From positions 72,171 to 112,206 of the forward strand of contig JAFVSI010000009.1 of the NCBI GenBank assembly GCA_017503865.1: a stretch of DNA of 40,036 nt, written 5' to 3'. Of this stretch, positions 11,281 through 30,451 are shown in pieces (position 1 is the stretch's first letter; each line of letters begins with the position of its first letter). The position numbers and the translations under genes were made by a program. This DNA comes from Clostridia bacterium (GTDB lineage Bacteria > Bacillota > Clostridia > Oscillospirales > CAG-272). The notes beneath the pieces were generated by a model. It saw nothing but the letters and a program-made list of their open reading frames with translations. It searched no databases and was not told where the DNA came from.

Positions 11281-12894
11281 TTAATCGATTTTACCGATGA
11301 AGCGGTAGTAGATCTCTATCTCTTGGTCGCGGTATCCGTCCTCGGTTGTTGTGCCTTGGTGGATAACGATTTTCTCAATCAGTTCGTTGAGCAGAGGGAC
11401 TGTCAATTCCGTGACCTCGGTGTACTTCCGTATCAGTGAGATCCAACGCTCAGCGTTTCGCTCGGTTTCGGCGTTTTCGGACAGCTTGGTTTTGAGTGCT
11501 GAGATCTTTTCTTCAAGCTCCATCTGCTCGTCTTGATACTTGTGCAAAAGCATATCGTAATTACGCTCGGCAATCTTGCCCATCGCGTGATCCTCATATA
11601 GCTTTGCAAACATCGTATCAATTTCCTTTTGCCGCTTAAGAGATTTGTTAAGCTCTTTTTTTGCAATATCCGTTTCGCTTACCCGTTGCTTTTGACCGTT
11701 TTTCAAGAGATGGTCTAATAGCTGTTTTTCATCTTTTTGCGCCAATGATACCCAATACTGAAGTCTCACAAGAACCACATTACACAAGGTCTTATAATTG
11801 ATAAGATGATTCGTACACCGTTCCTTGCCGTATTGAGCGTAAGTTGAACACTCAAACGCGCGATAAACGCTGTCCTTGTATTTTCTTTGCTTGATCCTCA
11901 TAAAGCTTTCACAATCAGCACAACGGATCAGTCCCGCAAAGATGTGTGTCGAGCCGCTTTTGCATGGCCGCTTTCTTTGATTTACGTGAACCTGTACTTG
12001 CTCCCATACGTCTAAAGAGATCAGAGGTTCGTGTGTGTTCTCCACCCGATACCAATCATCCTCATCTGACAAATACTGCTTTTTGTTCTTAAACGAAACG
12101 TATTTACGTCGGTAATGGATGCTATTACCGATGTAGGTCTCATCTCGCAAGATAAAGCCTATTTGCGGATTTGTCCAAAGATACTTTTGATTTTCGGGTT
12201 TGCCCTCAAACAGATGTGAAAAGAACCCGTATCTTTCGTATTGCCTCCAAGATGGACTGGGTATCTTCTCGGCTTCTAAAGCTCTGCGAATGCGATTCGG
12301 CCCCATCCCCGTGGTCGCAAGGGTAAAAATCTTTCGCACTACCCAAGCGGTCTCCTCATCGGGAACGATCTTTCCCTTAATAGTCTCGTGCTTAACGTAT
12401 CCGTAAGGAGCGCAATATCCCGATCTTGCACCATTCTCAAACCGAACCTTCATCGCGGCTTTCACCTTTTTCGATGTCTGTCTTGCGTGCATCTCATTGA
12501 GAATGTTCAGAAACGGTGCGATCTCACTTTCACCTTTTTCGCTATCCACTCCGTCGCTGATTGCAATATAGCGGACGCCTTTGGATGGAAAATAGATCTC
12601 TGTGTACTGTCCCGTTAGGATATAGTTTCTGCCGAGACGCGAAAGGTCTTTTGTAACAACGCAATTGATCTTTCCGTCCTCAATATCATCGAGCATTCTT
12701 TGAAATCCGGGACGATCAAAATTTGTACCCGAGTAACCGTCATCAACGTACTCGTCAACAAGCCTCAGCCCGTGCTCTCTGCAATATTGGGTAAGCATCT
12801 GCCTTTGGTTGGATATACTGACGCTTTCGCCGTGAACGTCATCGTCACAGCTAAGTCTTAAATAAATTCCTGTATTGTAGATTTGTTGTTTCAA
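11281..12894 (-). CDS. Large serine recombinase, TnpX type
   Basis: A 537-residue site-specific recombinase that excises and integrates mobile elements through a serine-linked DNA intermediate. The resolvase domain covers about 7-155 with nucleophile Ser15 in YLRLSCDDD and SRLGRNYILTGQYTE; the recombinase domain about 175-290 (GYVKHETIKGKIVPDEE, ETYIGNSIHYR); a zinc ribbon with CADC and later two cysteines about 318-365; a charged coiled coil about 390-475. The start is TTG at 12894, supported by AAGGAGGAA 6 nt upstream. It resembles TnpX of Tn4451-like elements. It is transcribed last in the leftward mobilization region, facing the element's left edge. Confidence 0.93.
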   Translation of the reverse strand: MKQQIYNTGIYLRLSCDDDVHGESVSISNQRQMLTQYCREHGLRLVDEYVDDGYSGTNFDRPGFQRMLDDIEDGKINCVVTKDLSRLGRNYILTGQYTEIYFPSKGVRYIAISDGVDSEKGESEIAPFLNILNEMHARQTSKKVKAAMKVRFENGARSGYCAPYGYVKHETIKGKIVPDEETAWVVRKIFTLATTGMGPNRIRRALEAEKIPSPSWRQYERYGFFSHLFEGKPENQKYLWTNPQIGFILRDETYIGNSIHYRRKYVSFKNKKQYLSDEDDWYRVENTHEPLISLDVWEQVQVHVNQRKRPCKSGSTHIFAGLIRCADCESFMRIKQRKYKDSVYRAFECSTYAQYGKERCTNHLINYKTLCNVVLVRLQYWVSLAQKDEKQLLDHLLKNGQKQRVSETDIAKKELNKSLKRQKEIDTMFAKLYEDHAMGKIAERNYDMLLHKYQDEQMELEEKISALKTKLSENAETERNAERWISLIRKYTEVTELTVPLLNELIEKIVIHQGTTTEDGYRDQEIEIYYRFIGKID

Positions 12895-13259: not shown

Positions 13260-14188
13260 CCATTACCTCCATTCATAATGACCGCATCAAGCTCAGTAGG
13301 CTCATTCATTACTGCGTTCTGCTGCGAGTCATACCAAGCGAACAAAATCTCAATAATCTTGTCCTTGACCTCCTTGGGCTTCATATCGGGAAAGAAGTCG
13401 GAGATCTCGTCTAATGCGAATTTTACGCTCTGCTTCTTGGGTGCTTTTTCTTTCGGCTTAGAGGCATTGCATTTGAAGTAGCCGCGAATCTGTTCTTCGT
13501 TGAGCTCTCCTGCTTTACTCGCATTTTTCATTTCTTCGGTCTTGTCTGTGGTAATTGACATAGATTTCTCCATAAGCAGCATCCACACCGTCATCTGCTC
13601 AAATTGACGCAGATAGGAATAGTTCACACCTGCGGTTAGCGAAACGATGCCCTCATCCACCATTTTCAAGAGCTCGGGGATAAGATAGGTTAAGCGGATA
13701 TAACGCTGAATCTGACGAGCACTATCGTCCGTGCTTTCTGCAAGCGCCTCGTCGGAACGCTTCGTGCCATCTTGGCACGAACTTCCTTGATGGCGCAGAA
13801 CGTCCATCTTCATCTTGTAGGCAAACGCCTTCTCCGACGGGAGTATTTTCTCGCGCTGAAGGTTAGCATCGACCATTGTAAGAATGGCTTCTTCATCGGT
13901 AAGATCACGAACGATTACGGGCACATCAAACTTATTGAGTCTCTTACAAGCTTCATATCGTCTGTGACCGGATACGATCTCATAACCGCCGCCCGTAGGT
14001 CTTTTTCTAACAATAATGGGGTTGAGTACGCCGTACTGACGGATGCTCTCAACAAGTGCCTCCATATCCTCATCGTCCTTGACCTTAAAGGGATGGTTCT
14101 CCATCGGGTGAATGTTGGTGAGTGCATATACGCAGGTGTTTTCTGTTCTGCGGGCGTTCAAATCTTTTGTTTCACAAGGGTTTATCAT
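13256..14188 (-). CDS. ParB/Spo0J-family partition protein of the mobile element
   Basis: A 310-residue protein with the ParB N-terminal domain: IHPMENHPFKVKDDEDMEALVESI, GVLNPIIVRK and the signature GYEIVSGHRRYEACKRL (about residues 66-82), then VDANLQREKILPSEKAFAYKMKMDVL and the helix-turn-helix region RQIQRYIRLTYLIPELLKMV (about 160-180). Such ParB homologues accompany relaxases on Clostridia mobile elements, without a ParA here. The nuclease-like CTPase motif GHRR is intact. It overlaps the relaxase gene by 4 nt (ATGA) and the TnpW-like gene by 4 nt. Its coding sequence contains one of three palindromes that could be its binding sites. Confidence 0.9.
   Translation of the reverse strand: MINPCETKDLNARRTENTCVYALTNIHPMENHPFKVKDDEDMEALVESIRQYGVLNPIIVRKRPTGGGYEIVSGHRRYEACKRLNKFDVPVIVRDLTDEEAILTMVDANLQREKILPSEKAFAYKMKMDVLRHQGSSCQDGTKRSDEALAESTDDSARQIQRYIRLTYLIPELLKMVDEGIVSLTAGVNYSYLRQFEQMTVWMLLMEKSMSITTDKTEEMKNASKAGELNEEQIRGYFKCNASKPKEKAPKKQSVKFALDEISDFFPDMKPKEVKDKIIEILFAWYDSQQNAVMNEPTELDAVIMNGGNG
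13761..13781. repeat. Palindrome TTCGTGCCA-TCT-TGGCACGAA inside the ParB-like gene
   Basis: Perfect 9-bp arms around 3 bp. The core CGTGCCA-N3-TGGCACG is found again at 17138-17156 and, with one change, at 16204-16224. It encodes SCQDGTK on the minus strand, so coding constraint alone could explain this copy but not the two non-coding ones. Confidence 0.5.
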
Positions 14189-15576
14189 CTTTGTTTTTCC
14201 TCATTTCTTTTAATTTTAGGTTGTTTTTTTGCTCCCGTTTCTCTCGGGAACATTTCTTGTTCTTGCTCCATCTCAATGCGGAGCTTTTCTTTTAGGTTTT
14301 CGATTATCGGGAATATGCCCTTAGCCAAGTTAATATCGTGGCGAATAGTTTTCAGTTCGGCACTTATGGCTTTGCGCTTACGTGAGCATTCGTCTTTATC
14401 GGCTTCGGTAGTAGCTCTGCGGCGGCGATTATCGATCTTGTTACGTGCTGACAGTAACATAGCCATCTCCGCTTCTTTCTCATCAATAAAGGTTTGAACC
14501 TTGTCGGCAGTACCAAGGTCGTTGCGATTGATGAGATTGACCGTTTCCATATAGCGATCCAAATAGATCTGCTCTTGACGCATTGCGGGTGAAAACGGCT
14601 CTTGGTAGTTTTCAGTTGTTATTAGGTTGCCGCTTGTATCAATGCCGAACAATTCAAGCACGATCATAAAGATCAGTTCTACAGTGTTATGCTGATCGTA
14701 CCTCTTACATCGCTCCCAAATCTCATAAAGCGGTGGACGGCTCGGATAGTACGGTGTTCGATGTTCTCGCCTTGACAATATTCGCTTTTCGATTGCTTCG
14801 GTGGTATAGCGTTCACCGAGGCTATCTATACGAACAGGGCGTTTCCATCCCTTTGCGATCACGCAAGGATGCTTGTACTCCTTACCGCGCAGATAGGTGT
14901 AGCCGCGCCGCGCAAGCGCGAATTGAAAATGACTTGGAAGCATACAATCCGCAATAGCATCGTCAATGTCCATCTTCAATAGCGTCCTGTGAGACGGCTT
15001 GCCTTTCTTCTCAGCCATATACGCGACGTATGGTGCACGTTTCCTCTGTGGTTTCCGGATAACCGAGAGATTGTGTTCAAGACAGAGCTTGTCCGATTCG
15101 GGAGCCATCACCGTGTCATGATAGTACGGCGGGCAATGGAACTTCTCTCCATCCTTGAAGCTCACGCTATTCAGAATAAAGTGGTTATGCAGATGCTCGT
15201 GATCTCGGTGGCTGGCAACCAATACCTCGTATTTGTCACCCCACAATCTTTTGGCAAGCTCCACCCCGAGCGCGTGGCATTGCTCGGGTGTTACCTCACC
15301 GGGTTTGAAGCTTTGGTATCCGTGGTAGGCGACAATACCTCCGTACTTTCCGTACCGTCGCTTGGTCTCCACCATTCGCTCATAGGCAAGCTCGGGCAGG
15401 CAGTTTACTCCACTGATCAGATACCTTTGTTCCGTCTTGTCGGGATTCTCGGCATAATCCATCAACCGGCGGAGATCTTCTTCGTTGGGATTCTCTGTCT
15501 TATCCGGATTAGTGGCATAATCTAAAGCATCCTTAATGGAGCGGTGCACCGCCCATATTGACGTCACTGCCATCAT
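14185..15576 (-). CDS. Relaxase, MobA/VirD2-like (MOBP)
   Basis: A 463-residue relaxase that nicks oriT and leads the strand during mobilization. The metal-binding triad motif is clear as HRDHEHLHNHFILNSV (about residues 123-138). The N-terminal part carries AVTSIWAVHRSIKDALDYATNPDKT and LAYERMVETKRRYGK, typical of relaxases on TnpX-type elements; the C-terminal third is helical and basic. A short internal duplication (YATNPDKT and YAENPDKT, residues 20-27 and 41-48) is noted. It overlaps mobC-like and parB-like genes by 4 nt each, so the three are translationally coupled. Confidence 0.92.
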   Translation of the reverse strand: MMAVTSIWAVHRSIKDALDYATNPDKTENPNEEDLRRLMDYAENPDKTEQRYLISGVNCLPELAYERMVETKRRYGKYGGIVAYHGYQSFKPGEVTPEQCHALGVELAKRLWGDKYEVLVASHRDHEHLHNHFILNSVSFKDGEKFHCPPYYHDTVMAPESDKLCLEHNLSVIRKPQRKRAPYVAYMAEKKGKPSHRTLLKMDIDDAIADCMLPSHFQFALARRGYTYLRGKEYKHPCVIAKGWKRPVRIDSLGERYTTEAIEKRILSRREHRTPYYPSRPPLYEIWERCKRYDQHNTVELIFMIVLELFGIDTSGNLITTENYQEPFSPAMRQEQIYLDRYMETVNLINRNDLGTADKVQTFIDEKEAEMAMLLSARNKIDNRRRRATTEADKDECSRKRKAISAELKTIRHDINLAKGIFPIIENLKEKLRIEMEQEQEMFPRETGAKKQPKIKRNEEKQR

Positions 15577-16822: not shown

Positions 16823-16876
16823 AAAAAAGTGGAGCCAATAAATTGCATTAGAAAATGCAGCTTATCGACCCCACTT
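16823..16876 (-). terminator. Attenuator-type terminator in the orphan leader
   Basis: Read on the minus strand: AAGTGG (16876-16871) pairs with CCACTT (16832-16827), an inner stem TGCATT/AATGCA (16859-16844) is perfect, with a GATAA/TTATT step between; a T6 run follows (16828-16823). A second hairpin CATTGATG/CATCAATG lies upstream at 16884-16905. Confidence 0.55.
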
Positions 16877-17021
16877 GGTCCTTCATTGATGCCACTTCAT
16901 CAATGGTTTTTCATATTTAATTGATCATTCTAATATGATGACACGATTGCCCGAACCGCATAAATTAGGTTCACTCTTGGCCTTGTGAAATTTCAACGCA
17001 AAGAGTCCTGTGTCCTCTTAT

Positions 17022-17171: not shown

Positions 17172-17648
17172 TTATTCAATTTGATCTAAAAATTCGCCGT
17201 AGATCAGCTGCTCGGCTTCTTTTCGAGCCTTGACAGCATCATCAAAATTTGCATATGTACCGAAATTGTAAGTCTTGCCCTTGAAACGAAGTCGAGCGCG
17301 CCATTTGCCTGTTTTGCGCTCTAAATATACACCGCGTGCGCCGCTGGTGTTGGTTGCGATCAGCTTGTTGCTTGTGATACGGCTGATCTGTGTTCCGTCC
17401 ACAAAACCAGCCTTTTCTCGCATCTTTTCGCCTGCATATTTGCCGACGCATTCATTACACATACTTAAATCGAGGTTCGTCAGCGTATCGGTAGCTTTGT
17501 AGGTGATATTGCCACAATCGCACCGACATTCCCACAGAGGAACCGTTCTCGCGCCGCGGGAACCACGCTTGCCCGAGCGACTGATGACCTCTAATTTACC
17601 GAAACGGCGGCCTATCAGATTTTCTTTTGTTGGTAAAGCTCTTGCCAT
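17172..17648 (-). CDS. AP2-domain protein with cysteine pairs
   Basis: A 158-residue probable DNA-binding protein. Residues about 1-75 contain FGKLEVISRSGKRG and four or more cysteines in ECRCDCGN and MCNEC, likely a zinc-binding unit; residues about 101-148 form an AP2/integrase-type DNA-binding domain (SGARGVYLERKTGKWRARL, GTYANFDDAVKARKEAE). Such proteins are common on phages and mobile elements, sometimes fused to HNH nucleases; no nuclease motif is seen. The ATG is 1 nt after the stop of the preceding gene and has no ribosome site of its own, so it depends on translational coupling. It is the last gene of the surface-protein operon. Confidence 0.82.
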   Translation of the reverse strand: MARALPTKENLIGRRFGKLEVISRSGKRGSRGARTVPLWECRCDCGNITYKATDTLTNLDLSMCNECVGKYAGEKMREKAGFVDGTQISRITSNKLIATNTSGARGVYLERKTGKWRARLRFKGKTYNFGTYANFDDAVKARKEAEQLIYGEFLDQIE

Positions 17649-17649
17649 A

Positions 17650-18342
17650 TTATTGAGTTATCTCAGAGGGAGATATGTCGGTCACAACCTCCACTACTGC
17701 CTCAGCAGTATCCGATTCCGTCACTACCTCCGAAGTTGTCGTTACCTCAACAGGTGTTCCGTTGTTGATTGGCTGGGATTCGATTGCTTCTTTAGTTGAA
17801 TTTGTTTCCGGAGTAGATGCTGGTAATGCATCCTTTTTCGTGCAATTCAAATATAACCCACCATTTATAAAAGTCCTATTAGCATCGGGGACGCTTGATG
17901 TCCCCCAACATCTGATAATCTCCACTTCGGTGGTATCAGCTCCAAATTGCAAAGTGAAAGCAATAGATTCTCCTATCGAAATTTGATCAGTATAGTAATT
18001 CGTACCGTCAACATTTAAAACACAGTAGGCGGTCTTAGCATTTCCTTCGGCCGTGATTGTTATCTTATAGGGTGTATCTTTTTCAAAAGTGTACTTTCCG
18101 TCAGAACTGGGGACAATTGCAGTATCGTTATTCTTTACCGAAACGGTGACATCGCAATATGCAGATGTAATATCATTCGGTGACGATGATATTTCCGCAC
18201 TAAACCATGCCCAAGTAACCGAACAAAGAGCCACCATACAGAGTAATATCCCTATAACAGAAATCGTAATGCTCTGCTTAAACGCCTTTTCGGTCAATCT
18301 ATTGCTATCAGAAACGCATATATTCTTCTTATATTCTCTCAT
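17650..18342 (-). CDS. Exported protein with SipW-like signal segment
   Basis: A 230-residue protein. A basic N-terminus is followed by a membrane segment (about 24-45) ending in SVTWAWFSAEIS, which resembles the AWFTD-type signal of the three larger proteins upstream. The following 130 residues are beta-rich (YCDVTVSVKNNDTA, PYKITITAEGN, SIAFTLQFGADTTEVEI), compatible with a TasA/camelysin-like fold; the last 60 are Thr/Glu/Val-rich and probably disordered. Ribosome site GGAGGTC is 7 nt upstream. It is likely another cargo of the encoded signal peptidase, perhaps a minor fibre component; its role is unknown. Confidence 0.65.
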   Translation of the reverse strand: MREYKKNICVSDSNRLTEKAFKQSITISVIGILLCMVALCSVTWAWFSAEISSSPNDITSAYCDVTVSVKNNDTAIVPSSDGKYTFEKDTPYKITITAEGNAKTAYCVLNVDGTNYYTDQISIGESIAFTLQFGADTTEVEIIRCWGTSSVPDANRTFINGGLYLNCTKKDALPASTPETNSTKEAIESQPINNGTPVEVTTTSEVVTESDTAEAVVEVVTDISPSEITQ

Positions 18343-18472: not shown

Positions 18473-20293
18473 TTAGCCTTCCGGATTATAGCTTGCAGGA
18501 TAGTTGACAGTTACGCCTTCGTAGGAAGGAAGTCCCTTAACCCCATACTGATCACCGCCAATAATTTGGTTAAAGGGTATGCATTCATTGTGATGTACAG
18601 TGCATTGGCTATGGTCGTAATCAGCAGGAAGTCCATCATACGAATAACCGGGCTCAACACGCATACCTCTTCCGTTGTTATAACCGGGGGTAGGATCACA
18701 GTAATGATAATTCATCCAGTCTCCGTAGTTTACAGTTACGTTTGTGAATGTAACATTATACTTTGACATATCCGGATAGTTCATTCCATCAATAGTCGTC
18801 GTCTCCTCGCAACGACCGATCAACATACCGCACATACGGTAGTTATAGTAGTCGTAGGAAGCGGTACAATCGTTATAAGCATCAATACGGCAAGCAACGT
18901 TTACATTTTCGAAGTTGTAAGTTGCACCGGGCTCTGCCTGACCGACAATGCCGCCAATGGAGCTGTCAAAAGAACCCCAAAGACCTGCAAGAACACAATC
19001 TTCCTTGATTGTTATGTCTTTGAAAGTATAGTTACCGGCACCGGACCATCCGATGATACCGCCGTTACCGTTGTTGTACGTTGCGGAAATGCTGTCCTCA
19101 ATCGTAATATTCTCGAATACGCAGGTTCCCGTTGCGCTACCTGCGACAAAGGATGTGTCACCGCCTTCGATATAGCTTTCGGAACCGATTATAGTCAAAT
19201 TCTTGATGGTAGCGTTATTTACGTTACCAAACAATCCGTAAGAGCCATATGCCCCCCACTCGTAGCCAAGATCCCAACCATTCTGATAGAGATTGGTAAT
19301 GGCGTGACCTGCGCCATCAAAAGTACCCTCAAAGGTGCCGTCTTTGCTGTGATCACCGATAGGTCTGAAGGTTACGGGATCTCCATCTGCATTTTCAGAG
19401 GTATCTTCGCAGTAAAGGTCAAGATCGTTTGCGAGTGTAAAAGTTACACCAGCAAAAGTGGTATCTCCCGAACACAGTTCAGAAAGACCGGCAAGCTGCT
19501 CAGCGGTTGTAAAGATGTATTCTGTTTGAGGATTTTCGGGATTGTACCATGACGTATCAGCAGTACCGTCCCAAACATCAGCAGTTGCAAGTTCGGGATA
19601 TGTAGAATCCTTATCATACTGGTTGCCGAAGCTATCGTTCTCATAAGTAAATTGAGTTGCAAGAACATTGATGCCGAAGGTGATTGTGGGAATATCGGTG
19701 CCGTTGTGGTTAGCCTCGTTGCCAACGCTTTCAGCCATATCGACCTTTACGATCAGATACTTGGAAGTACCGGGCAGCAGCATTTCGTCAGCTCCAAGAA
19801 CATTTGCGTTTTTAAAGGAAGCTGTATTGGTGTACTGCAATGTGCTTTCGTCGCCGAAAGCCACTCCAAGCAGAACATCGCCCATTGCCCCAGTATCCAT
19901 AATAATCGAATCAACGGTAATAATGTCTGAGAGAACGATATTAGCACCATCTTTAGTCTTACCGATGGTCTCGTTAACAATGTTCATATTGGCATTGTAT
20001 TTCAAAGCCAAAGTACCATTGTTCTTAATACGGAGAGCGACTACCTCTGTGTGACCGGGCTCCCAAAGTCCCTTCTGGAACAGATCGGTTGCACCGTCAA
20101 GTTCGTTCCAGTTTTCACCGTCAAGCGTATACTCAACAACAATGTCAAGATTGCCTGCGGTAATCACGTTGCTGCCGGAAGCAGCACTGTCTGTAAACCA
20201 CGCGAACGTCGTGCTAAGCAGCATGGAAAAGCAAAGGAGTAGTGCCATGACGCTTGCAAGGAGTGCGCGCTTTGTGGATTTTGTGTTAGTCAT
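18473..20293 (-). CDS. TasA-like surface protein with GLUG-type beta-helix tail
   Basis: A 606-residue exported protein. The signal (TKRALLASVMALLLCFSMLL, then STTFAWFTDSAASG) is of the SipW-cognate class. Residues about 36-230 form the TasA/camelysin-like head (GNLDIVVEYTLDGENWNELD, GHTEVVALRIKNNGTLALKY, DIPTITFGINVLATQFTYE). From about 265 the sequence changes to a repeat-rich beta-helix with GLUG-like units (FRPIGDHSKDGTFEGTFDGAG, YGLFGNVNNATIKNLTI, GGIVGQ) seen in bacterial adhesins. The head is almost identical to that of the next gene upstream. Role in a surface fibre or adhesion is inferred. Ribosome site AAAGGAGGTT. Confidence 0.82.
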   Translation of the reverse strand: MTNTKSTKRALLASVMALLLCFSMLLSTTFAWFTDSAASGSNVITAGNLDIVVEYTLDGENWNELDGATDLFQKGLWEPGHTEVVALRIKNNGTLALKYNANMNIVNETIGKTKDGANIVLSDIITVDSIIMDTGAMGDVLLGVAFGDESTLQYTNTASFKNANVLGADEMLLPGTSKYLIVKVDMAESVGNEANHNGTDIPTITFGINVLATQFTYENDSFGNQYDKDSTYPELATADVWDGTADTSWYNPENPQTEYIFTTAEQLAGLSELCSGDTTFAGVTFTLANDLDLYCEDTSENADGDPVTFRPIGDHSKDGTFEGTFDGAGHAITNLYQNGWDLGYEWGAYGSYGLFGNVNNATIKNLTIIGSESYIEGGDTSFVAGSATGTCVFENITIEDSISATYNNGNGGIIGWSGAGNYTFKDITIKEDCVLAGLWGSFDSSIGGIVGQAEPGATYNFENVNVACRIDAYNDCTASYDYYNYRMCGMLIGRCEETTTIDGMNYPDMSKYNVTFTNVTVNYGDWMNYHYCDPTPGYNNGRGMRVEPGYSYDGLPADYDHSQCTVHHNECIPFNQIIGGDQYGVKGLPSYEGVTVNYPASYNPEG

Positions 20294-20325: not shown

Positions 20326-21861
20326 TTAGCCCTTGCGGTAAACTTCAATGCCGTCAATATTGATAATAGCAACACGACCCGAGTTCATCTTGCCGGTAGT
20401 ACCATAGGAACCGTTATAGGTGGTGTTGTTAACATTGATCGTACCGCCAGAGCTGAACACCTGGAATGCCAATGCGTTTGCATCGGAACCTGCGTAGACC
20501 TCACAGTTATTGATAGTCAAAGTAGCTCCGCCTGCGACTGCAACAGCGTGAGACTTTTCTGCCTTGATAATGCAATTTTCGATAGTCATATCACCCATAG
20601 CATATACAGCAGGCTGCATGTTCTTGGTGTTTTTCGCAGTAATGGTAGCATCCTTAACAGAAGAACCTTCGGGCAGAAGCAGACCGGTCGTTGCTTCAAA
20701 AGTACCACCGTTGATCTCTACGCTGAGATTGCTTCCATCATAATAAGAGCAATCCAATACATATCCGTTAGCTGCGGTGCTCGTATAATTAACATCATTC
20801 AGAACAATCTTGATTTCACCGTCACCGTCAGGCTTAATCAAAGTAGAACCTGCATCGTCAGAAATGAAGCTACCGCCATTGATTTCGATAGTAGCATTCG
20901 CCCCTGCGGCAACATCGACCAATCCGTTCTTGCCCAGCTTAACTTCTTCGTCAGTTCCTTCGATTTTTACAGTAACATCGCTTCCAGAAGCTACGAAGAA
21001 AGCACTATCGAGGGCGGAGGCATCCATATCAAAACCGTTCAGATCAATCGTAACATTGTCGGCAACAGCAATAGTTTCCGTCAAGGAAATGTCAGCCTCA
21101 AACTTTACGCTCTTACCCTCTGCAAGAGCATCGGAAAGACCTGCTGCATCAACCACAGGATACTCCGCGTCTGCATCATACTGATTACCGAAGCTATCAT
21201 TTTCATAAGTAAACTGAGTAGCAAGAACATTGATACCGAAGTTGATGGTAGGAATGTCTGTACCATTGTGGTTAGCTTCGTTAGCAACAGCTTCGTCCAT
21301 ATCAACCTTGATGATCAAATAGTGCTCTACACCGGGAGCAAGCTCAACATCACTGCGAAGAATGTTACCTGCTTTGAATGTAGCGGTATTTTCATAAGCC
21401 ACGCTACTTTCACCGTTAAATGCAAGCATAAGTGCAATATCACCAACACCCATATCATCGTTAGCCTGCTGAACAAGAGTACTTACGGTAAGAATGTCTG
21501 AGAGAACGATATCAGCACCATCCTTAGTCTTACCGATGGTCTCGCTGGCAATGTTCATATTGGCAGCATATTTCAGAGCCAAAGAACCATTGTTGGTGAT
21601 ACGGAGAGCGACTACCTCTGTGTGACCGGGCTCCCAAAGTCCCTTCTGGAACAGATCGGTTGCACCGTCAAGAGCGTTCCAGTTTTCACCGTCAAGCGTA
21701 TACTCAACAACAATGTCAAGGTTGCCTGCGGTAATCACGTTGCTGCCGGAAGCAGCACTGTCTGTAAACCACGCGAACGTCGTGCTAAGCAGCATGGAAA
21801 AGCAAAGGAGCATTGCCATGACACTTGCGAGGAGTGCGCGCTTTGTGGATTTGTTTGTCAT
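20326..21861 (-). CDS. TasA-like surface protein with parallel beta-helix tail
   Basis: A 511-residue paralogue of the neighbouring gene. The SipW-cognate signal (CFSMLLSTTFAWFTDSAASG) and head domain are nearly identical to those of the 606-residue protein, up to ATQFTYENDSFGNQYD at about residue 230. The tail (about 232-511) is a different right-handed beta-helix with repeated strands such as VTIDLNGFDMDA, ATIEINGGSF, LSVEINGGTFEA and DATITAKNTKN, like pectate-lyase-type adhesin repeats without an evident catalytic site. It lies 32 nt upstream of the 606-residue gene. Ribosome site AAGGAGGTC. It probably forms part of the same surface fibre or decorates it. Confidence 0.82.
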   Translation of the reverse strand: MTNKSTKRALLASVMAMLLCFSMLLSTTFAWFTDSAASGSNVITAGNLDIVVEYTLDGENWNALDGATDLFQKGLWEPGHTEVVALRITNNGSLALKYAANMNIASETIGKTKDGADIVLSDILTVSTLVQQANDDMGVGDIALMLAFNGESSVAYENTATFKAGNILRSDVELAPGVEHYLIIKVDMDEAVANEANHNGTDIPTINFGINVLATQFTYENDSFGNQYDADAEYPVVDAAGLSDALAEGKSVKFEADISLTETIAVADNVTIDLNGFDMDASALDSAFFVASGSDVTVKIEGTDEEVKLGKNGLVDVAAGANATIEINGGSFISDDAGSTLIKPDGDGEIKIVLNDVNYTSTAANGYVLDCSYYDGSNLSVEINGGTFEATTGLLLPEGSSVKDATITAKNTKNMQPAVYAMGDMTIENCIIKAEKSHAVAVAGGATLTINNCEVYAGSDANALAFQVFSSGGTINVNNTTYNGSYGTTGKMNSGRVAIINIDGIEVYRKG

Positions 21862-21987: not shown

Positions 21988-24195
21988 TCACTTTACAACT
22001 ACAAGAGAGATATCGGTTTCATAGAGCAAACCGAGAGTAGCAATGTTGTCGGCAGTGATCAAAGTATCTCCGTAGTAGCAGTTTTCAAAAGTAGCTTCTG
22101 CTCCGGCTACGACCTCAATCTCAAATCCTGCATCGAAGTGGCAGTTCTTAAATTCAGTGGAGTTGTATGCTCTGAGGAACGCATAACCCTGTCCCTCACC
22201 AAAGTTACAGTTATCAAAAACTACTTCCATGTGAACATTGCTATAGCTGGTCCAACCGTTCAAGGTAGAGTTGCTAATATAAACGCCATAGTTTTTGTTT
22301 CCTGCATCAGAGTTGAATGTGTAAACAGTACCGTCGATAATTACGTTATCAATGTAAACGTTATCAGTGGCGCCGCTCATAAAGATACCACGCATACCAC
22401 TGTTGATAACTACGTTCTTGATAGTACCTCCGGTGGTGTTAATAGCACTATCCCAAGTGGTCCAAGCATCTACGCCGATAGAATTGCCGTGGCCATCGAG
22501 ACTCTGACCGTTCTTTACAACAACACCAGTCGCGCCGTAACCATTAGAGCCGGTCTGATTACTTTCTACAAAAACATCGAAAATAAGATCAACGTTTCCA
22601 CCACTTGCGAGAGCGTTCTGCAATGAACCAGCATCAATAGCGAGATCAGTGTTTGCTACGATATCATAGCAGGTGTCATTATCGGCTACGTACGAATTCT
22701 CAAACTTGCCCGCGCCACCATTAATAACATTGTCCTTTACGAGAAGCTGGCACTTGGGAAGAGCATGGAAATACTTGCATCCGATAGCAGTAAGAGTTGC
22801 ACCAGTGGTGTTATAGAACTCGTTCTCAACAATAGCTACGTTAAGAGCATAAGTGCATCCCGCACCATTGTGGGGATTTACCTTTGCGCCACAGTTAAAG
22901 AATGTGTTGCCGCTAATGGTAACATCTGCCTTTGTATAACCAATACGGATTGCCCAGTCATCAACAACGGTATCAAGAGTACCGAAGGTGTTGTTTGTGA
23001 TAGTGAAACCACCCTTATCACCAGCATAGTCGATATAAATATATCTCTCTGCATTGGTGAGGAACTTACAGTTGTCAACAACTATGTTTCCAGCTGCGCC
23101 GGACTTACGGCCGTTCTCATAGAATGCGATCGGAACGTAGTTATCGGTATTCTGGTTGAAATAATTCAAGAACTCACAGTTGCGAATCTGAATATTGGCG
23201 GCACCATATGTGCTCGTCGTAGCACCAACAATGTTTGCAGTAAGGCCGGGGTTCTTGCTTACGCCCTGTACTTCGCGAGGTGCATATGCGTCGAAGGTAA
23301 TACCGTCAAGAACGATATTGTGCTTGGAGTCGAGGTTGATGAAGTCAACCCAAGCCTTATCGGTATCAGGAACGTTGGGGTTAGCGATAAGCGTAATGTC
23401 ATTCTGCTTAATAACGATAGGCTCATAGTATCCACCTGCAGAAAGACCGATAACGGTACCGGGCTCGCAAGTGTCAAGTATCTGCTGAATGGTCTCAGGA
23501 GTTGCGATGATATCGCAGGGGAGAGCTGCAGCGTCGTAATCGCTGCCGTAGCTATCCTCTTCGTGGGTGTACTGAGTAGCCATGAGATTGATACCGAGCT
23601 TGATCTCAGGAACGGCTGTGCCTGTCTTGTAGTTCGCTTCGTTACCAACAGTTTCGGGCATATAAACGATCATAGCGATATAATCGGTTTCGTTATTTTC
23701 CTCAAGAGCGTTTGCTTTGGTATAACCAGCGGAGATGGTCTTGTTGCCTCTCTCAACAGCCTTAAGCGCATCTGCACGATTTGCGAAAGCAGTATCAGTT
23801 TCAACTATACCGTACTTGATATAGTCAGAAAGCTTAAAGGGCTTTTCGTTAACATTAGTACCGGCAGTTTCGGAAACAACATTGATACCAAGCTGATACT
23901 TGAGAGCGAGAGAACCAACGTTCGTAATCTTCAGATAAACTACCTCAGTGTGGCCGGGTTCCCAAAGAGTGTTCTCCTTAAAGATGTTCGTATTCTCCGT
24001 TACTTCGTCCCAATTAGAAGCATCGGTGCTCCATTCGAGCTTAACATCGAGGTTTCCTGCAACAATGATGTTGTTTTCTGAAACAACGCTGTCTGTAAAC
24101 CACGCGAACGTCGTGCTAAGCAGCATGGTGAAGCAAAGGAGCATCGCCATGACGCTTGCGAGGAGTGCGCGCTTTGTGGATTTTGTGTTAGTCAT
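21988..24195 (-). CDS. Large TasA-like surface protein with pectate-lyase-like beta-helix
   Basis: A 735-residue exported protein, the largest of the three paralogues. The SipW-cognate signal STTFAWFTDSVVSENN follows a membrane segment at about 10-30; the head (about 36-235) is a more diverged TasA-like domain (GNLDVKLEWSTDASNWDEVT, GHTEVVYLKITNVGSLALKY, EIKLGINLMATQYTHEEDSY). From about 245 a right-handed parallel beta-helix runs to the end (NIVLDGITFDAYAP, NIQIRNCEFLNYF, NVYIDNVIIDGTVY, FKNCHFDAGFE), as in pectate-lyase-like adhesins. Catalytic residues were not identified. It is the first gene after the signal peptidase and so the likely main substrate. Confidence 0.82.
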   Translation of the reverse strand: MTNTKSTKRALLASVMAMLLCFTMLLSTTFAWFTDSVVSENNIIVAGNLDVKLEWSTDASNWDEVTENTNIFKENTLWEPGHTEVVYLKITNVGSLALKYQLGINVVSETAGTNVNEKPFKLSDYIKYGIVETDTAFANRADALKAVERGNKTISAGYTKANALEENNETDYIAMIVYMPETVGNEANYKTGTAVPEIKLGINLMATQYTHEEDSYGSDYDAAALPCDIIATPETIQQILDTCEPGTVIGLSAGGYYEPIVIKQNDITLIANPNVPDTDKAWVDFINLDSKHNIVLDGITFDAYAPREVQGVSKNPGLTANIVGATTSTYGAANIQIRNCEFLNYFNQNTDNYVPIAFYENGRKSGAAGNIVVDNCKFLTNAERYIYIDYAGDKGGFTITNNTFGTLDTVVDDWAIRIGYTKADVTISGNTFFNCGAKVNPHNGAGCTYALNVAIVENEFYNTTGATLTAIGCKYFHALPKCQLLVKDNVINGGAGKFENSYVADNDTCYDIVANTDLAIDAGSLQNALASGGNVDLIFDVFVESNQTGSNGYGATGVVVKNGQSLDGHGNSIGVDAWTTWDSAINTTGGTIKNVVINSGMRGIFMSGATDNVYIDNVIIDGTVYTFNSDAGNKNYGVYISNSTLNGWTSYSNVHMEVVFDNCNFGEGQGYAFLRAYNSTEFKNCHFDAGFEIEVVAGAEATFENCYYGDTLITADNIATLGLLYETDISLVVVK

Positions 24196-24264: not shown

Positions 24265-24993
24265 CTATTCTGTTTCGTCCGTTGTGCTATCCTCGAACGC
24301 AGGATCGGCGGGAGGCGTTGCCTCGCCGTCTTTTTTGGCAAGCTGAGCTTTGAGCTCCAACAGCTCCGCCATCATACGCTGACTTTCTGCGCGTTCTTGC
24401 TCGATCTTTTCTCTTTCCACCTTCATTTCGTCCATTTGTTCCTTTTTGTATTGACGGAACAGGCGGATGCAATTAAGTCCCTGAGAAAGAATAAGAAGCA
24501 GAAAAGGAAGAAGGATACAAAGAATATAACCGGGTGTCGTTTTAAGAAACATAAAGAACGAGCCCACCTTCGGTATTCTGCCAACGTATTGTCCGACAAC
24601 GTATTCATGTGTCACAACGGTTCTATCATCGGTATCAGTCGTAGTACCGTAGGTCACGAATCCGGGATGTCCGTTTGCATCGGTCGTCAATCTTCTGATC
24701 TTATGTGTGATCACCTCGCCAAAGTTATCGGGGTCTTGCGATAGGAAGGTGATAATGTCGCCCTCTTTCAACGTTTTGGGGTCAACGTTCTTCGATATCG
24801 CAATATCACCCGCATCAAAGTCGGTGGCTGACATGGAATCACTCGTTACGATGAAGAACTTGAAACCGAACAAGTTTCTTTCCGTCTTATCAAAGGTGCT
24901 GACCGAGATCAGAGTGAAGATCATCATACCGATCGCAACGGCGACTACGAGCCAGACCAAAACGGTCTTTGTTATCTGTAATGCTTTTTTCAT
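24265..24993 (-). CDS. sipW: Signal peptidase I, SipW type
   Basis: A 242-residue ER-type signal peptidase. The catalytic serine is Ser53 in IVTSDSMSATDFDAGD, and the general base is a histidine, His97, in GEVITHKIRR, the Ser-His arrangement of SipW and archaeal/eukaryotic enzymes rather than Ser-Lys. A membrane segment lies at about 9-30 and a second at about 153-172; the C-terminal 65 residues are a charged coiled coil that is longer than in Bacillus SipW. The ATG at 24993 has GGGAGG 5 nt upstream and follows the TasA-like gene stop by 11 nt. In Bacillus the operon order tapA-sipW-tasA serves biofilm fibre formation; here it sits in a similar context. Confidence 0.93.
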   Translation of the reverse strand: MKKALQITKTVLVWLVVAVAIGMMIFTLISVSTFDKTERNLFGFKFFIVTSDSMSATDFDAGDIAISKNVDPKTLKEGDIITFLSQDPDNFGEVITHKIRRLTTDANGHPGFVTYGTTTDTDDRTVVTHEYVVGQYVGRIPKVGSFFMFLKTTPGYILCILLPFLLLILSQGLNCIRLFRQYKKEQMDEMKVEREKIEQERAESQRMMAELLELKAQLAKKDGEATPPADPAFEDSTTDETE

Positions 24994-25004
24994 ACCGTCC
25001 TCCC

Positions 25005-25553
25005 TCAATTACCGAAATCCTTATCGGGATTATTTTTCTTCTGCGTTGCGTCTGCCGTGATATTAAAGGACACGGTCTGACCCTGCGCGCTATTATCGGC
25101 ATCGGGAAAGAAATAGAACTCAATGGTAAGCGTTTTACTCTCGCCTGCGGCAAGACTGCCTGTCATTACTTTGTCGGCGGTCAACTGGTTCATCGTACCC
25201 TTGCTGAGAACGGTTCCGTCCTTTTCCTTGATGGTAACGGTGATATCATCCTGTAATTCGCCATTCACGCCCGTAAGATAAACACGATACCACACGTCGA
25301 ACGTGCCGAGGTTGGAAATGGGAAACTCGCTTGTATAAGTTCCACCGGGCTCATAAACCATATCGGTTACGTCAACAATGGGTTTCCCATCGTTAATCGT
25401 AAGATCAACTCCCATACTCATAGTAAAACGGTTGTTCCGTATACTGACGATGGAGCTTGCCAAGGCAAAGCTGGTGATGGTCAGTCCCAGTGAAAGGAGG
25501 ACGACGGTTACGATCATCATTGTCAATTTTTTCTTTAAATTATGTTCATTCAT
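25005..25553 (-). CDS. Small TasA/camelysin-like exported protein
   Basis: A 182-residue exported protein. A membrane segment (about 10-34: TMMIVTVVLLSLGLTITSFA) is followed by a beta-sandwich-like region with features of the TasA/CalY family: VYEPGGTYTSEFPISNLGTF (about 66-85), VWYRVYLTG and AAGESKTLTIEFYFFPDADN. It has no AWFTD motif. It lies directly before sipW, the position TapA or a TasA-like subunit takes in related operons. Ribosome site AAAGGAGGAAA at 25560-25570 region, overlapping the end of the previous gene's spacer. It is probably a minor fibre or anchoring subunit; the family assignment is by pattern. Confidence 0.7.
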   Translation of the reverse strand: MNEHNLKKKLTMMIVTVVLLSLGLTITSFALASSIVSIRNNRFTMSMGVDLTINDGKPIVDVTDMVYEPGGTYTSEFPISNLGTFDVWYRVYLTGVNGELQDDITVTIKEKDGTVLSKGTMNQLTADKVMTGSLAAGESKTLTIEFYFFPDADNSAQGQTVSFNITADATQKKNNPDKDFGN

Positions 25554-27240: not shown

Positions 27241-27840
27241 TTAATTTTTAAAATAGGTTATCATCATACAATACAGAACGTTGAAGATGTGCGGTCTGTT
27301 TTCATCGTTATCTTCAAGATCACCGTTATAGACACGAATAGCAAAATCGAACAGTGCAGTAAACACACTATGTAGTATCGAAGAAACGTCGGCTTCTTCT
27401 TTGAATATCGGGGTCATTTCATCGACCATTCCCGCAAACAGTTTTCTGTGAGCTTCAAGAGAAGCGCCTTTGAAGTATATCGAATAATAATACCTAACAT
27501 AGCATCGGCAACGTTCCTCATTACCCAAGATAAATTGCCAAGCCATTGAGAAAAAACTCTCCAGCTTTTCTTTTCTGTTGTCATCAAATCCACCGACGAT
27601 TGCAACGCCGTGCTTGAATGCGTGGAACAACTCTGTATCCAATCGAACAAAAGCAGTTTCATATAGTTTCTCCTTGCTACCGAAGAAACGATAGATATAG
27701 ACTTCGTTCATCTTGAAATCGGGCAGTTGTCCTCCGCAGTGAGTAAGTTCCTTGGTTGTCGCTTTTTCAAAGCCGCCTTCGGCAATAAGATGTATGGCAT
27801 TTTCAATCAGAAGCTCTTTTATTTCCGATTCGTACCTCAT
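27241..27840 (-). CDS. TetR/AcrR-family regulator heading the operon
   Basis: A 199-residue one-component regulator. The helix-turn-helix is at about 5-60 (IKELLIENAIHLIAEGGFEK, TTKELTHCGG..., NEVYIYRFFGSKEKLYETAF), with the family's YIYRFFGSKEKLY recognition pattern; the rest is the helical ligand/dimer domain. An unusual 10-residue insertion (CGGQLPDFKM) sits in the DNA-binding turn. The ATG at 27840 has GGAGGGG 7 nt upstream; the ATG at 27861 has no ribosome site. It is the first gene after the invertible promoter and 16 nt before the anchor gene, so it may autoregulate the operon. Confidence 0.85.
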   Translation of the reverse strand: MRYESEIKELLIENAIHLIAEGGFEKATTKELTHCGGQLPDFKMNEVYIYRFFGSKEKLYETAFVRLDTELFHAFKHGVAIVGGFDDNRKEKLESFFSMAWQFILGNEERCRCYVRYYYSIYFKGASLEAHRKLFAGMVDEMTPIFKEEADVSSILHSVFTALFDFAIRVYNGDLEDNDENRPHIFNVLYCMMITYFKN

Positions 27841-27917
27841 TCGGTTTCCCCTCCATTTCATTTGTAACCGAGCATTTTTGAGTTTAAGGCAATTAGTGAA
27901 CGCTACACGGATGTCTT

Positions 27918-27941
27918 AAAAAAATCCTATCCAATGTAGGA
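27918..27941 (-). terminator. Weak hairpin with T7 run in the operon leader
   Basis: Minus strand TCCTA (27941-27937), 7-nt loop, TAGGA (27929-27925), then seven T. The 5-bp stem is short, so it would at most reduce readthrough from the invertible promoter into the operon. Confidence 0.3.
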
Positions 27942-28043
27942 ATTAGACTTTTAATAATCAAATACAGCGCACATGGGCTAATAAAGCGACATAACGAGAG
28001 TTATGTGATATTAGGTATCCGACAAATTCCAGATACATAAGTG

Positions 28044-28072
28044 ATTATACCACAAAAGCTCGTAAAAATCAA
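28044..28072 (-). promoter_or_regulatory. Promoter inside the invertible segment
   Basis: Minus strand TTGATT (28072-28067), 17-bp spacer, TATAAT (28049-28044) preceded by TGG (extended -10). Predicted start near 28037, so the transcript crosses the left 19-bp site before reaching tetR. Confidence 0.85.
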
Positions 28073-28144
28073 TAGGTTCAACACAATTTATAAGCTTACA
28101 ACGAAATTTTATTGAAATAGATACAAAAAATTGCATAACAACAA

Positions 28145-28195
28145 CGCCTTTCGTATAGTTTTTTCAAAAAAATACGGCGAAAGGCTTTTTGTTGC
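28145..28195. terminator. Hairpin within the invertible segment
   Basis: GCCTTTCG (28146-28153) pairs with CGAAAGGC (28178-28185) around a T/A-rich loop and is followed by TTTTTG on the plus strand. It may stop transcription coming from the recombinase gene or, after inversion, from the opposite side. Confidence 0.5.
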
Positions 28196-28307
28196 GCTTT
28201 TTATTAGATCGCGTTTACGTGAAAATGGTAACGATTCCCACCATTTGACCACATAACTCTCGTTATGTTTCTCTTGGTCTCGGCGTATCCGCGTCGGGCT
28301 TTTATTT

Positions 28308-29147
28308 TTATACAATCAAGCGCATATGTTCCATTTTGCGCTTGTGCTCCGCACCTGTTGTAACAATATAAATACGGGTGGTATTGATGCTGGCGTGTCC
28401 GAGTATATCCGCGAGTTTTGCAATGTCTTTTTCAATGCCGTAAAAAGTACGTGCAAATAAATGACGCAAGTTGTGCGGAAATACCTTGCTCGGTGCTACG
28501 TGCGCCTGCTCACACAAGGCTTTCATTTCTTTCCATATATTATTACGGCTGACGGGTTTACCGTTTCGTGTGATGAATACCGCGCCCGACGATATTTTCT
28601 GCTCCTTAACGTAACGGAGCAGTTTTTTCTTTAATTCGGGAACAATGAATATTCTGCGGTTCTTACCTTTGCAATTCACAACAGCCTCTCCCTTGCCCAA
28701 TGCTTCGACAGTTATATATTGAAGTTCACTTACACGGATACCCGTTCCGCAAATGGTCTGAATGATGAGATTGAGTCGCTCGTTGTGTTTTTTGTTCGCT
28801 GCTTCAAGCAGCCGTAGATATTCGGCGCGTGTCAATTCCTTTTCCTCGGAGCAGTAGGCTTGTCTTTGCACACGAAATTGCTTTACACATAGATCGTGCC
28901 AACCGCAAAAGCGCAGAAAGGAGTTCAGCGCGGCAATCATCGAATTAGCGCTTGCCACCGCGTATGAATTTCCAAGCTTGTTTTTGTAATCCATCACACT
29001 TTGTTTGCTTACTTCCGATGAGCCTATAAAACCAACGAAGCACCTTACATCACGCATATACTTTTCAATCGTCGCTTTGCTTCTTTCCTCGTTTCTTAAA
29101 TAGATTTCAAAGTCTTTTATTTTCTTTGACGTTATAATTCTTTTCAT
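28308..29147 (-). CDS. Tyrosine recombinase, probable invertase of the promoter switch
   Basis: A 279-residue XerC/D-like recombinase. The SAM-like core-binding domain covers about 8-85 (FEIYLRNEERSKATIEKYMR), the catalytic domain about 105-279. All catalytic residues are visible: Arg138 (GTGIRVSEL), Lys160/162 (CKGKNRR), His225-x-x-Arg228 (PHNLRHLFA), His251 (LGHASINTTRIY) and Tyr260. There are no excisionase or attachment-site features of a phage integrase nearby. Its 3' end lies 39 bp from an inverted site pair, which makes DNA inversion its likely job; the element has a separate serine recombinase for transposition. Ribosome site AAGGAG, 8 nt. The 222-bp region upstream (29148-29369) is AT-rich with TGG-TATAAA-like boxes but no clear promoter. 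Confidence 0.92.
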   Translation of the reverse strand: MKRIITSKKIKDFEIYLRNEERSKATIEKYMRDVRCFVGFIGSSEVSKQSVMDYKNKLGNSYAVASANSMIAALNSFLRFCGWHDLCVKQFRVQRQAYCSEEKELTRAEYLRLLEAANKKHNERLNLIIQTICGTGIRVSELQYITVEALGKGEAVVNCKGKNRRIFIVPELKKKLLRYVKEQKISSGAVFITRNGKPVSRNNIWKEMKALCEQAHVAPSKVFPHNLRHLFARTFYGIEKDIAKLADILGHASINTTRIYIVTTGAEHKRKMEHMRLIV

Positions 29148-29712: not shown

Positions 29713-29994
29713 TCACCTCGTGCTTTCGGTGTTCGACAAAACTTCAAGCATCATCCTTGCACCGAGTTTGAACGCATATGAGAAAATCTCACGCTCGTTA
29801 ATATCGGTCAATTCATTATAGCAATCGTCGAATTTTTCAAGTAACTCTTTTTGCTCATCGTTAAGCATAGAGAGTAGGTTATCGTGGTGATCGGCTATGT
29901 ACCCCATCAACTGCTTCGTTTCTTTATCTTGGCTTCTGCAATCGGTATTGGGGCAGATATTTCCGTAAAACAGTTCTTCAAGGATAGATCTCAT
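29713..29994 (-). CDS. DUF6809-like small protein
   Basis: A 93-residue protein starting MRSILEELFYGNICPN, with DKETKQLMGYIADHHDNLLS, NDEQKELLEKFDDCYNEL and FSYAFKLGARMMLEVL. This pattern is that of DUF6809, small helical proteins of unknown function found on Clostridia mobile elements next to XRE regulators. It overlaps the end of tnpV by 4 nt. Confidence 0.75.
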   Translation of the reverse strand: MRSILEELFYGNICPNTDCRSQDKETKQLMGYIADHHDNLLSMLNDEQKELLEKFDDCYNELTDINEREIFSYAFKLGARMMLEVLSNTESTR

Positions 29995-30374
29995 TTGTAG
30001 ATGACCTCCTTCAGAACAATTTCTTCCGCACTTGCCTTGATATTGTTCATTTCGGCAACCCAACGAAGCATATCACGAGCTTTCAAATCCTCGTCAATAC
30101 CTCTTCCAGCAGCGAGGCTGGGGATGATGCTTTCAAGCATTTCCTTTGCTTCAAGGTCGATGTCGTGTAGCCGAGCATTCAACTTGCCTTCGGTTAAAAG
30201 AGTAGTATACCTTCCGCGACGGTGGTTCTTGATGTAATCAAGGTGCATCAGTCCATATTTGCCAATCTGATAGTCGGTCTGTTCGGGAAGGGTTACGTTA
30301 GGAATAAGGTGTCCGTTTTCCTCGCGGTATGTACCACCGAGCTTTTCATAAAGATTATCAAAGTTCTTTTTCAT
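29991..30374 (-). CDS. Transposon-encoded protein TnpV
   Basis: A 127-residue protein of the TnpV family known from Tn4451-like transposons. The family pattern is clear: YEKLGGTYREENGHLIPNVTLP (about 7-28, partly), GLMHLDYIKNHRRGRYTTLL, LTEGKLNARLHDIDLEA and WVAEMNNIKASAEEIVLKEVIY. Function is unknown. The ATG at 30374 is preferred because GGAG lies 7 nt upstream; the ATG at 30380 is only 1-2 nt from it. It supports the view that the TnpX-like recombinase and this right arm belong to one element. Confidence 0.85.
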   Translation of the reverse strand: MKKNFDNLYEKLGGTYREENGHLIPNVTLPEQTDYQIGKYGLMHLDYIKNHRRGRYTTLLTEGKLNARLHDIDLEAKEMLESIIPSLAAGRGIDEDLKARDMLRWVAEMNNIKASAEEIVLKEVIYK

Positions 30375-30451
30375 TTTCATTCTCCATTACATTTTATTTT
30401 TTATAAGCAAGTATTGTAATGGATTGCTTTTGTGTCTTTAATTAAGTCAGT

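Follow-up and report, generated by a model that had tools for sequence, protein, structure and literature searches.

The DNA analyzed here, a 40,036-nt stretch from a Clostridia bacterium (referred to below as the window), contains a short promoter-bearing segment between inverted repeats, with a tyrosine recombinase gene on one side and an operon with TasA- and SipW-type genes on the other, and poses the question of whether the segment is a DNA switch for the operon. Judging from sequence comparisons, we consider this very probable, and propose a phase-variation switch in which the adjacent recombinase would invert the 242-bp segment and toggle the TasA/SipW-type operon from cell to cell. The features concerned are listed in Table 1.

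Table 1. Features of the window relevant to the proposed switch, its operon, and the surrounding element genes
Feature	Coordinates	Strand	Basis
Tyrosine recombinase, 279 aa, complete; proposed invertase of the switch	28308..29147	-	PF00589, E 2.5e-26
Recombinase-proximal site, CACATAACTCTCGTTATGT	28250..28268	+	Repeat search, uniqueness in window and genome, site comparison
Operon-proximal site, inverted copy of the recombinase-proximal sequence	27989..28007	-	Repeat search, uniqueness in window and genome, site comparison
Putative invertible segment, 242 bp, bounded by both sites	28008..28249	.	Relatives show both orientations
Extended -10 promoter, TTGATT-17-TATAAT with TGG before the -10, directed at the operon (ON)	28044..28072	-	Sequence, promoter scan, relatives
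T2, terminator-like hairpin within the segment; its U-run is on the strand not carrying the promoter	28146..28185	+	Folding; hairpins in relatives
T1, hairpin resembling a terminator, located between the recombinase-proximal site and the 3' end of the recombinase gene, reads towards the recombinase	28279..28298	+	Folding, z -3.0
T3, weak hairpin in the tetR leader, followed by a T-run; possible attenuator	27925..27941	-	Folding
Recurring TGTAG motif ahead of tetR, possible TetR operator	27890..27909	-	Leader comparison
TetR-like regulator, first gene of the operon	27241..27861	-	TetR_N, E 5.9e-05, 23.2 bits, just under the Pfam cut-off of 24
551-aa protein, no family match, relative in L017	25569..27224	-	Family scans, locus comparison
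TasA/camelysin-type protein, 182 aa	25005..25553	-	PF12389, E 8.9e-11, above cut-off
SipW-type signal peptidase	24265..25008	-	sigpep_I_arch, 65.3 bits (cut-off 51.85, above); SipW equivalog, 79.3 bits (cut-off 190, below)
735-aa protein, SipW-dependent-type signal	21988..24195	-	TIGR04088, 20.5 bits, cut-off 19
511-aa protein, SipW-dependent-type signal and TasA-type domain	20326..21861	-	PF12389, 25.3 bits, above cut-off; TIGR04088, 20.5 bits
606-aa protein, SipW-dependent-type signal	18473..20293	-	TIGR04088, 21.7 bits
230-aa protein, related to a late gene of sister operons	17650..18342	-	Relatives in L022 and L011
158-aa protein, 77% identical to one behind the L018 TasA-type gene	17172..17648	-	Locus comparison
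Large serine recombinase with DUF4368	11281..12894	-	Family match
MobA/VirD2-type relaxase	14185..15576	-	Family match
TnpV	29991..30380	-	PF14198, E 2.8e-39

The two 19-bp inverted repeats, ACATAACGAGAGTTATGTG and CACATAACTCTCGTTATGT, are 100% complementary, with 242 nt in between. When up to three mismatches are allowed, these are the only two matches in the window, with none in 100 shuffles, and the same two stand alone across the 2.14-Mb draft genome of the window. The identical pair reported in a first-pass annotation is thus borne out, as is its enclosure of a segment, the length of which is 242 bp and not the 244 bp then given; the proposed division of each site into 7-bp arms and a 4-bp centre gives way, on comparison of relatives, to 6-bp arms (ACATAA/TTATGT) around an asymmetric 6-bp centre, which in the window is CGAGAG. 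The recombinase gene was also described correctly as complete: the 279-aa frame is intact, its 3' end (28308) is 39 bp away from the outer boundary of the proximal site, and residues R138, K160, H225, R228, H251, and Y260, which we take to be the catalytic residues of a tyrosine recombinase, are invariant across 14 recombinase sequences.

The solved structures nearest to the recombinase are a XerC-like protein, XerA, and XerD, and the gene sits among element genes in the window, both of which would suit sites at which an element is resolved or excised in Xer-like fashion, with the enclosed promoter being incidental. We regard this as extremely improbable: inverted sites give inversion rather than excision, the promoter-bearing segment is kept in both orientations among relatives (see below), the Xer equivalog cut-offs are missed (116.5 versus 329.6 bits for XerD, and 115.4 versus 335.15 bits for XerC), and four relatives (G015, L019, L025, and G180) showed no element genes of the window's kind in the neighbourhoods inspected.

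Relatives of the recombinase (E up to 1e-40) occur in 6 of 30 genomes of the genus, the window's own included; all 11 named relative loci are from metagenome-assembled genomes (MAGs), nine of them from sheep, roe deer, or water deer gut, and no relatives were found in the viral contigs searched. A profile of the 14 recombinases (E up to 1e-75) matches 105 of 395 family, 109 of 394 order, and 25 of 392 class genomes, in samples that overlap and include the window's genome, the class sample being of genomes at least 98% complete. An inverted repeat pair lies beside the recombinase at all 73 distinct loci judged, the window included (32/32 in the family set and 42/42 in the order/class set; locus L098 of the latter is L017 again, giving 73 loci and not 74). 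As a control, the rule used for the order/class set finds a repeat of at least 12 bp in 58 of 2000 random 720-nt stretches of related DNA. Segments are 201 to 286 nt long in the family set, and 131 to 387 nt lie between the repeats in the order/class set. The judged loci are the better-scoring recombinases returned with downstream DNA, and are not a random sample, because judging was possible only where a search returned DNA, for at most 30 loci each time. The family set leaves out loci that repeat others (L001-L005, L009-L014, L033-L038, L040, L041, and L048) and those ending before the second site (L023, L024, L047, and L055); the order/class set leaves out 7 of 49 loci ending within 300 nt (L100, L102, L104, L109, L112, L113, and L130). 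Genomes G821 and G439 have six profile matches each, and repeat pairs are present in all of the loci read from them (three and two, respectively); with so many matches apiece, some species may hold many such switches.

The related loci carry the promoter in both directions. The best-scoring promoter is close to one segment end (17 to 71 nt) in the 32 family loci, and among the 73 distinct loci it points away from the recombinase (ON) in 20 and towards it (OFF) in 53; by set, 9/32 and 11/42 point away, and 23/32 and 31/42 towards. These calls use a simple promoter score, with close calls at L124, L134, L128, and L110. The evidence for orientation goes beyond the promoter score, as pairwise segment alignments show: for the 12 close loci, 66 of 66 segment pairs align better in the direction that the promoters predict, as do 453 of 496 pairs for all 32 family loci, and 193 of 207 pairs of opposite orientation align better when one segment is inverted. 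The other 43 pairs, 14 of them of opposite orientation, depart from the predicted direction and count against inversion. In the closest ON/OFF pairs, the flanks align directly and the segments inverted. The segments of the window (ON) and L039 (OFF) are 48.5% identical directly and 74.1% when inverted, and direct identity is 73.0% over the first 110 nt past the operon-side site and 79.7% over the recombinase end; L006 (ON) and L039 share 78.8% of the flank, and 48.9% (direct) or 75.4% (inverted) of the segment. For L016 (ON) and L019 (OFF), segment identity rises from 50.9% to 87.3% upon inversion; the terminal 300 nt of their recombinase genes are 88.7% identical, and the flank, which in L019 contains an additional site, 44.9%. 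The opposite orientations that the first-pass annotation had proposed to seek in homologous loci are thus found, and the occurrence of both forms between related genomes and species strongly supports inversion of the segment. For the window's own strain a single assembled form is known, as would be expected if a formerly active switch were now fixed ON; the perfect sites and the complete recombinase frame with its catalytic residues make this very improbable, and we infer that the segment flips in this strain also.

Across the 32 family loci the consensus of the sites is ACATAA-N6-TTATGT, with positions 1-6 and 13-18 almost invariant and 7-12 variable. There are 22 types of centre, none self-complementary, and at every locus (32/32) the 6-bp centre is identical in both sites; the two sites are unequal at six loci, with the mismatches confined to the arms. 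When 4-bp centres are reshuffled among loci as a control, they match 5.1 times on average, with a maximum of 13 of 32. Strand exchange by tyrosine recombinases over a 6-bp overlap demands matching centres, and asymmetric centres in inverted sites lead to inversion; that centres match within each locus despite being of 22 types fits this requirement. Of the 42 order/class loci, 39 match the consensus with two mismatches or fewer; the repeats of the other three are unlike it at that threshold, which is a point against the switch reading.

Seven loci (L015, L016, L006, L019, L042, L050, and L058) have one or two extra site copies downstream of the recombinase, giving nested invertible units, and in six of the seven these are at the promoter-distal end of the segment. 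They are on the recombinase side in L015, L016, and L006, which are ON, and on the operon side in L019, which is OFF; the extra copies apparently travelled together with the segment, as would happen in a recombination between the outermost sites.

The enzyme responsible for inversion could also be another cellular recombinase, the adjacent gene serving something else such as a mobile element. A first look at the window's genome gave 11 candidates (one matching at 1e-40), and RecV of Clostridioides difficile inverts some, although not all, switches, according to the part of the report available to us (PMC5903667). We think this very improbable, since the switch lies beside the recombinase at all 73 distinct loci judged (themselves found through the recombinase), including loci with no element genes in view, and no further copy of the site lies elsewhere in the window's genome. 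The adjacent recombinase is the putative invertase.

Within the segment, the promoter has the extended -10 sequence and the direction towards tetR given in the first-pass annotation, and because it faces away from the recombinase and into the operon, the form given is ON, as also stated there. Judged by consensus alone, the promoter is unremarkable: a scan of 12.7 kb finds 26 promoter-like sites against 25.0 in shuffles, and this lack of excess is a point against the switch reading. Two hairpins could insulate the cassette. The stretch around T2 (28135-28200) folds with -21.2 kcal/mol (z -4.5) on the plus strand and -18.7 kcal/mol (z -3.1) on the minus strand, and T2 may act both ways given that the fold is stable on both; in relatives, where folding had no shuffle control, just 24 of 32 loci have the more stable T2 fold on the strand opposing the promoter, which tells against the model. 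By the same uncontrolled folding, T1 is at least as stable as -6 kcal/mol at 22 loci out of 32 and weak or missing at 10, another point against; nine of these 10 belong to the set with 53 to 55% recombinase identity.

We propose that the recombinase pairs the two sites (ACATAA-CGAGAG-TTATGT) and would exchange strands across the asymmetric 6-bp centre, inverting the 242-bp segment. In the ON form, transcription from the promoter would cross the operon-side site and continue into tetR and the rest of the TasA/SipW-type operon. In the OFF form it would face the recombinase 3' end, where T1 would terminate its transcript, and T2, inverted together with the segment, would keep transcription of the recombinase gene from running on into the operon; cells would then differ in fibre production. 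If this is correct, TasA/SipW-type operons of uncultured gut Clostridia would be under bet-hedging by DNA inversion, pairs of ACATAA-N6-TTATGT sites beside one recombinase family would provide a search handle for such switches, and the ON/OFF state could be read from existing metagenomes.

A second control layer is possible at the tetR leader (27862-27988), where the ON transcript crosses a T-run with a weak hairpin and the TGTAG motif before reaching tetR. These recur in eight of eight tetR-type leaders inspected; all six base pairs of the motif's symmetry are present only in L020. As an attenuator, T3 is only a lead: its fold does not exceed chance, since 31 of 60 shuffles fold equally well (5 to 39 of 60 across the eight leaders). 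The switch model does not account for T3, which the ON transcript would have to traverse, and this is a further point against the model.

In Bacillus subtilis, the tapA-sipW-tasA operon likewise joins a TasA/camelysin-type protein and a SipW-type peptidase, and Bacillus operons of this type are known from regulated biofilm control; the window's operon differs in its gene set, its large SipW-signal proteins, and its TetR-like first gene. We know of no inversion switch at tapA-sipW-tasA. A literature search, partly by titles and abstract openings, found no DNA-inversion switch of a TasA/SipW operon, in agreement with the first-pass annotation, to which no described switch of a TasA/SipW locus was known. 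The kind of switch is already known, given the published read-based flipping of Clostridia invertons beside tyrosine recombinases; a TasA/SipW target and a portable layout with its own hairpins are without a report in the sources searched. In the accessible part of that study, sequencing reads from a defined gut community show such invertons shifting orientation in culture, and inverton group 139 (invertase group 35) of gut bacteria comprises 33 invertons, of which 32 belong to the class Clostridia; a tyrosine-type recombinase lies no more than 5 kb away from nearly all of the 33, oriented so that the segment promoter would not drive it (PMC11892184). Two printed examples have repeats of 26 and 14 bp with spacings of 205 and 227 bp. 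Group 139 resembles the window family in its class, nearby tyrosine recombinase, and repeat spacing, whereas the named relatives of the window are MAGs, mostly from sheep and deer gut. The group may, at a guess, be the window's switch family, although none of its printed coordinates, as far as available, coincides with the recombinase matches listed in the order and class searches, and TasA is absent from the main text of the paper (PMC11892184).

Two known systems share parts of the design. The cwpV/RecV switches of C. difficile have short inverted repeats, a segment of about 200 bp, a site-specific recombinase, a surface product, and an involved terminator (PMC2784873, PMC5903667, PMC7446863); for cwpV, the promoter lies beyond the segment, and the OFF transcript is proposed to form a terminator (PMC2784873), whereas in the window the promoter is inside and the recombinase adjacent. 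The fim switch of Escherichia coli has its promoter inside the inverted segment, as in the window, and its product is a surface fibre, which for the window is predicted from protein families; fim uses FimB and FimE (PMC2784873), whereas the window has a single recombinase nearest to XerA, XerC, and XerD, and a TasA/SipW-type operon.

The cassette of recombinase and switch looks portable, and in the window is set among integrative-element genes: a serine recombinase, a ParB-like protein, and a relaxase on one side of the operon, and HTH, DUF6809, and TnpV genes beyond the tyrosine recombinase. The gene set of Tn4451-type elements (a large serine recombinase, TnpV, and a mobilisation gene around accessory genes) is present around the window's operon; gene order differs from the Tn4451-type elements described in the accessible text, and the cargo is the switch with its operon (PMC3158075). 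Genome G138 has the same gene order as the window, with identities of 36% (serine recombinase), 29% (relaxase), 60% (HTH), 78% (DUF6809), and 79% (TnpV), and no match there to the ParB-like protein; L021 has distant serine recombinases (21%) upstream. TnpV is present in five of nine genomes, and beside the switch only in G000 and G138.

We compared identities of the recombinase with those of two chromosomal genes, encoding SpoVAD and a 60KD_IMP protein. G424 (locus L017) belongs to a different family of the same order; identity to the window's genome is 84% for its tyrosine recombinase, 55% for SpoVAD, and 29% for the 60KD_IMP protein, a match that may be a paralogue; other genomes with about 80 to 87% recombinase identity have 50 to 63% for SpoVAD and 38 to 59% for 60KD_IMP where found, with no match for SpoVAD in three of 12 genomes and for 60KD_IMP in one of 12. 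For G023, of the window's own genus, the values are 54% for the recombinase and 65% for SpoVAD. From these values, the cassette seems to move horizontally, subject to the caveat of misbinned contigs in MAGs. An empty site was sought via the genes of both flanks, which are well conserved as neighbours (SpoVAD and SpoVAEB together in 19/19 relatives on the left, and G3P_antiterm and DUF6106 in 9/10 on the right; the LPG-synthase neighbour showed no synteny in four stretches); none of the stretches examined from relatives joins the flanks, and the element's ends and its excision were not found. The term "mobile" in the first-pass annotation is supported by the element genes on both sides, in the window and one relative, and by the recombinase identities.

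The operon behind the switch comprises tetR (27241-27861) and, as annotated before, eight further genes on the same strand down to 17172. PF12389 (cut-off, 22.5 bits) matches two of its proteins at 42.4 and 25.3 bits, and two more below the cut-off at 21.0 and 21.4 bits; no PDB chain matched the 182-aa TasA-type protein in a search by sequence. The protein families point to a fibre as the putative product. Relatives of the TetR-like protein are 61 to 86% identical, and operons that begin with tetR and encode a relative of the SipW-type peptidase of the window are found in L015, L011 (G015), L019, L025, and L148 (G180); L022 has the same operon with an apparent tetR remnant, and L017 the same kind of operon without tetR.

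The switch cassette precedes many different operons. Among the first genes scanned against families (20 of the 30 non-window loci that yielded one), others encode SipW-signal proteins (L018 and L060), SipW-type peptidases (L043, and L045 below the cut-off), an LRR_5 protein (L021, and weakly L059), and a VWA protein (L051). We lean slightly towards a broader interpretation, that a self-contained cassette of recombinase and switch with insulating hairpins spreads through Clostridia, placing unrelated operons (TasA/SipW fibres, BspA-type LRR, MACPF-domain, VWA, condensation-domain, and others) under ON/OFF control by inversion, sometimes with its cargo on mobilisable elements.

Several smaller observations concern these operons. 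A MACPF-domain protein (L062:3-1172) and a condensation-domain NRPS-type protein (L054:1-1221) are encoded by first genes behind switches, and the frame of the tetR-like first gene is apparently broken in the L020 and L022 assemblies. Relatives of the window's 158-aa protein are last or first in switch-led units (L018, 2747-3226 past the recombinase end; L046:2036-2512), that of L046 having a weak AP2 match. Directly past the operon's last gene, at 16861-16908 on the minus strand of the window, there is a gut-2 RNA (RF02990, 58.5 bits).
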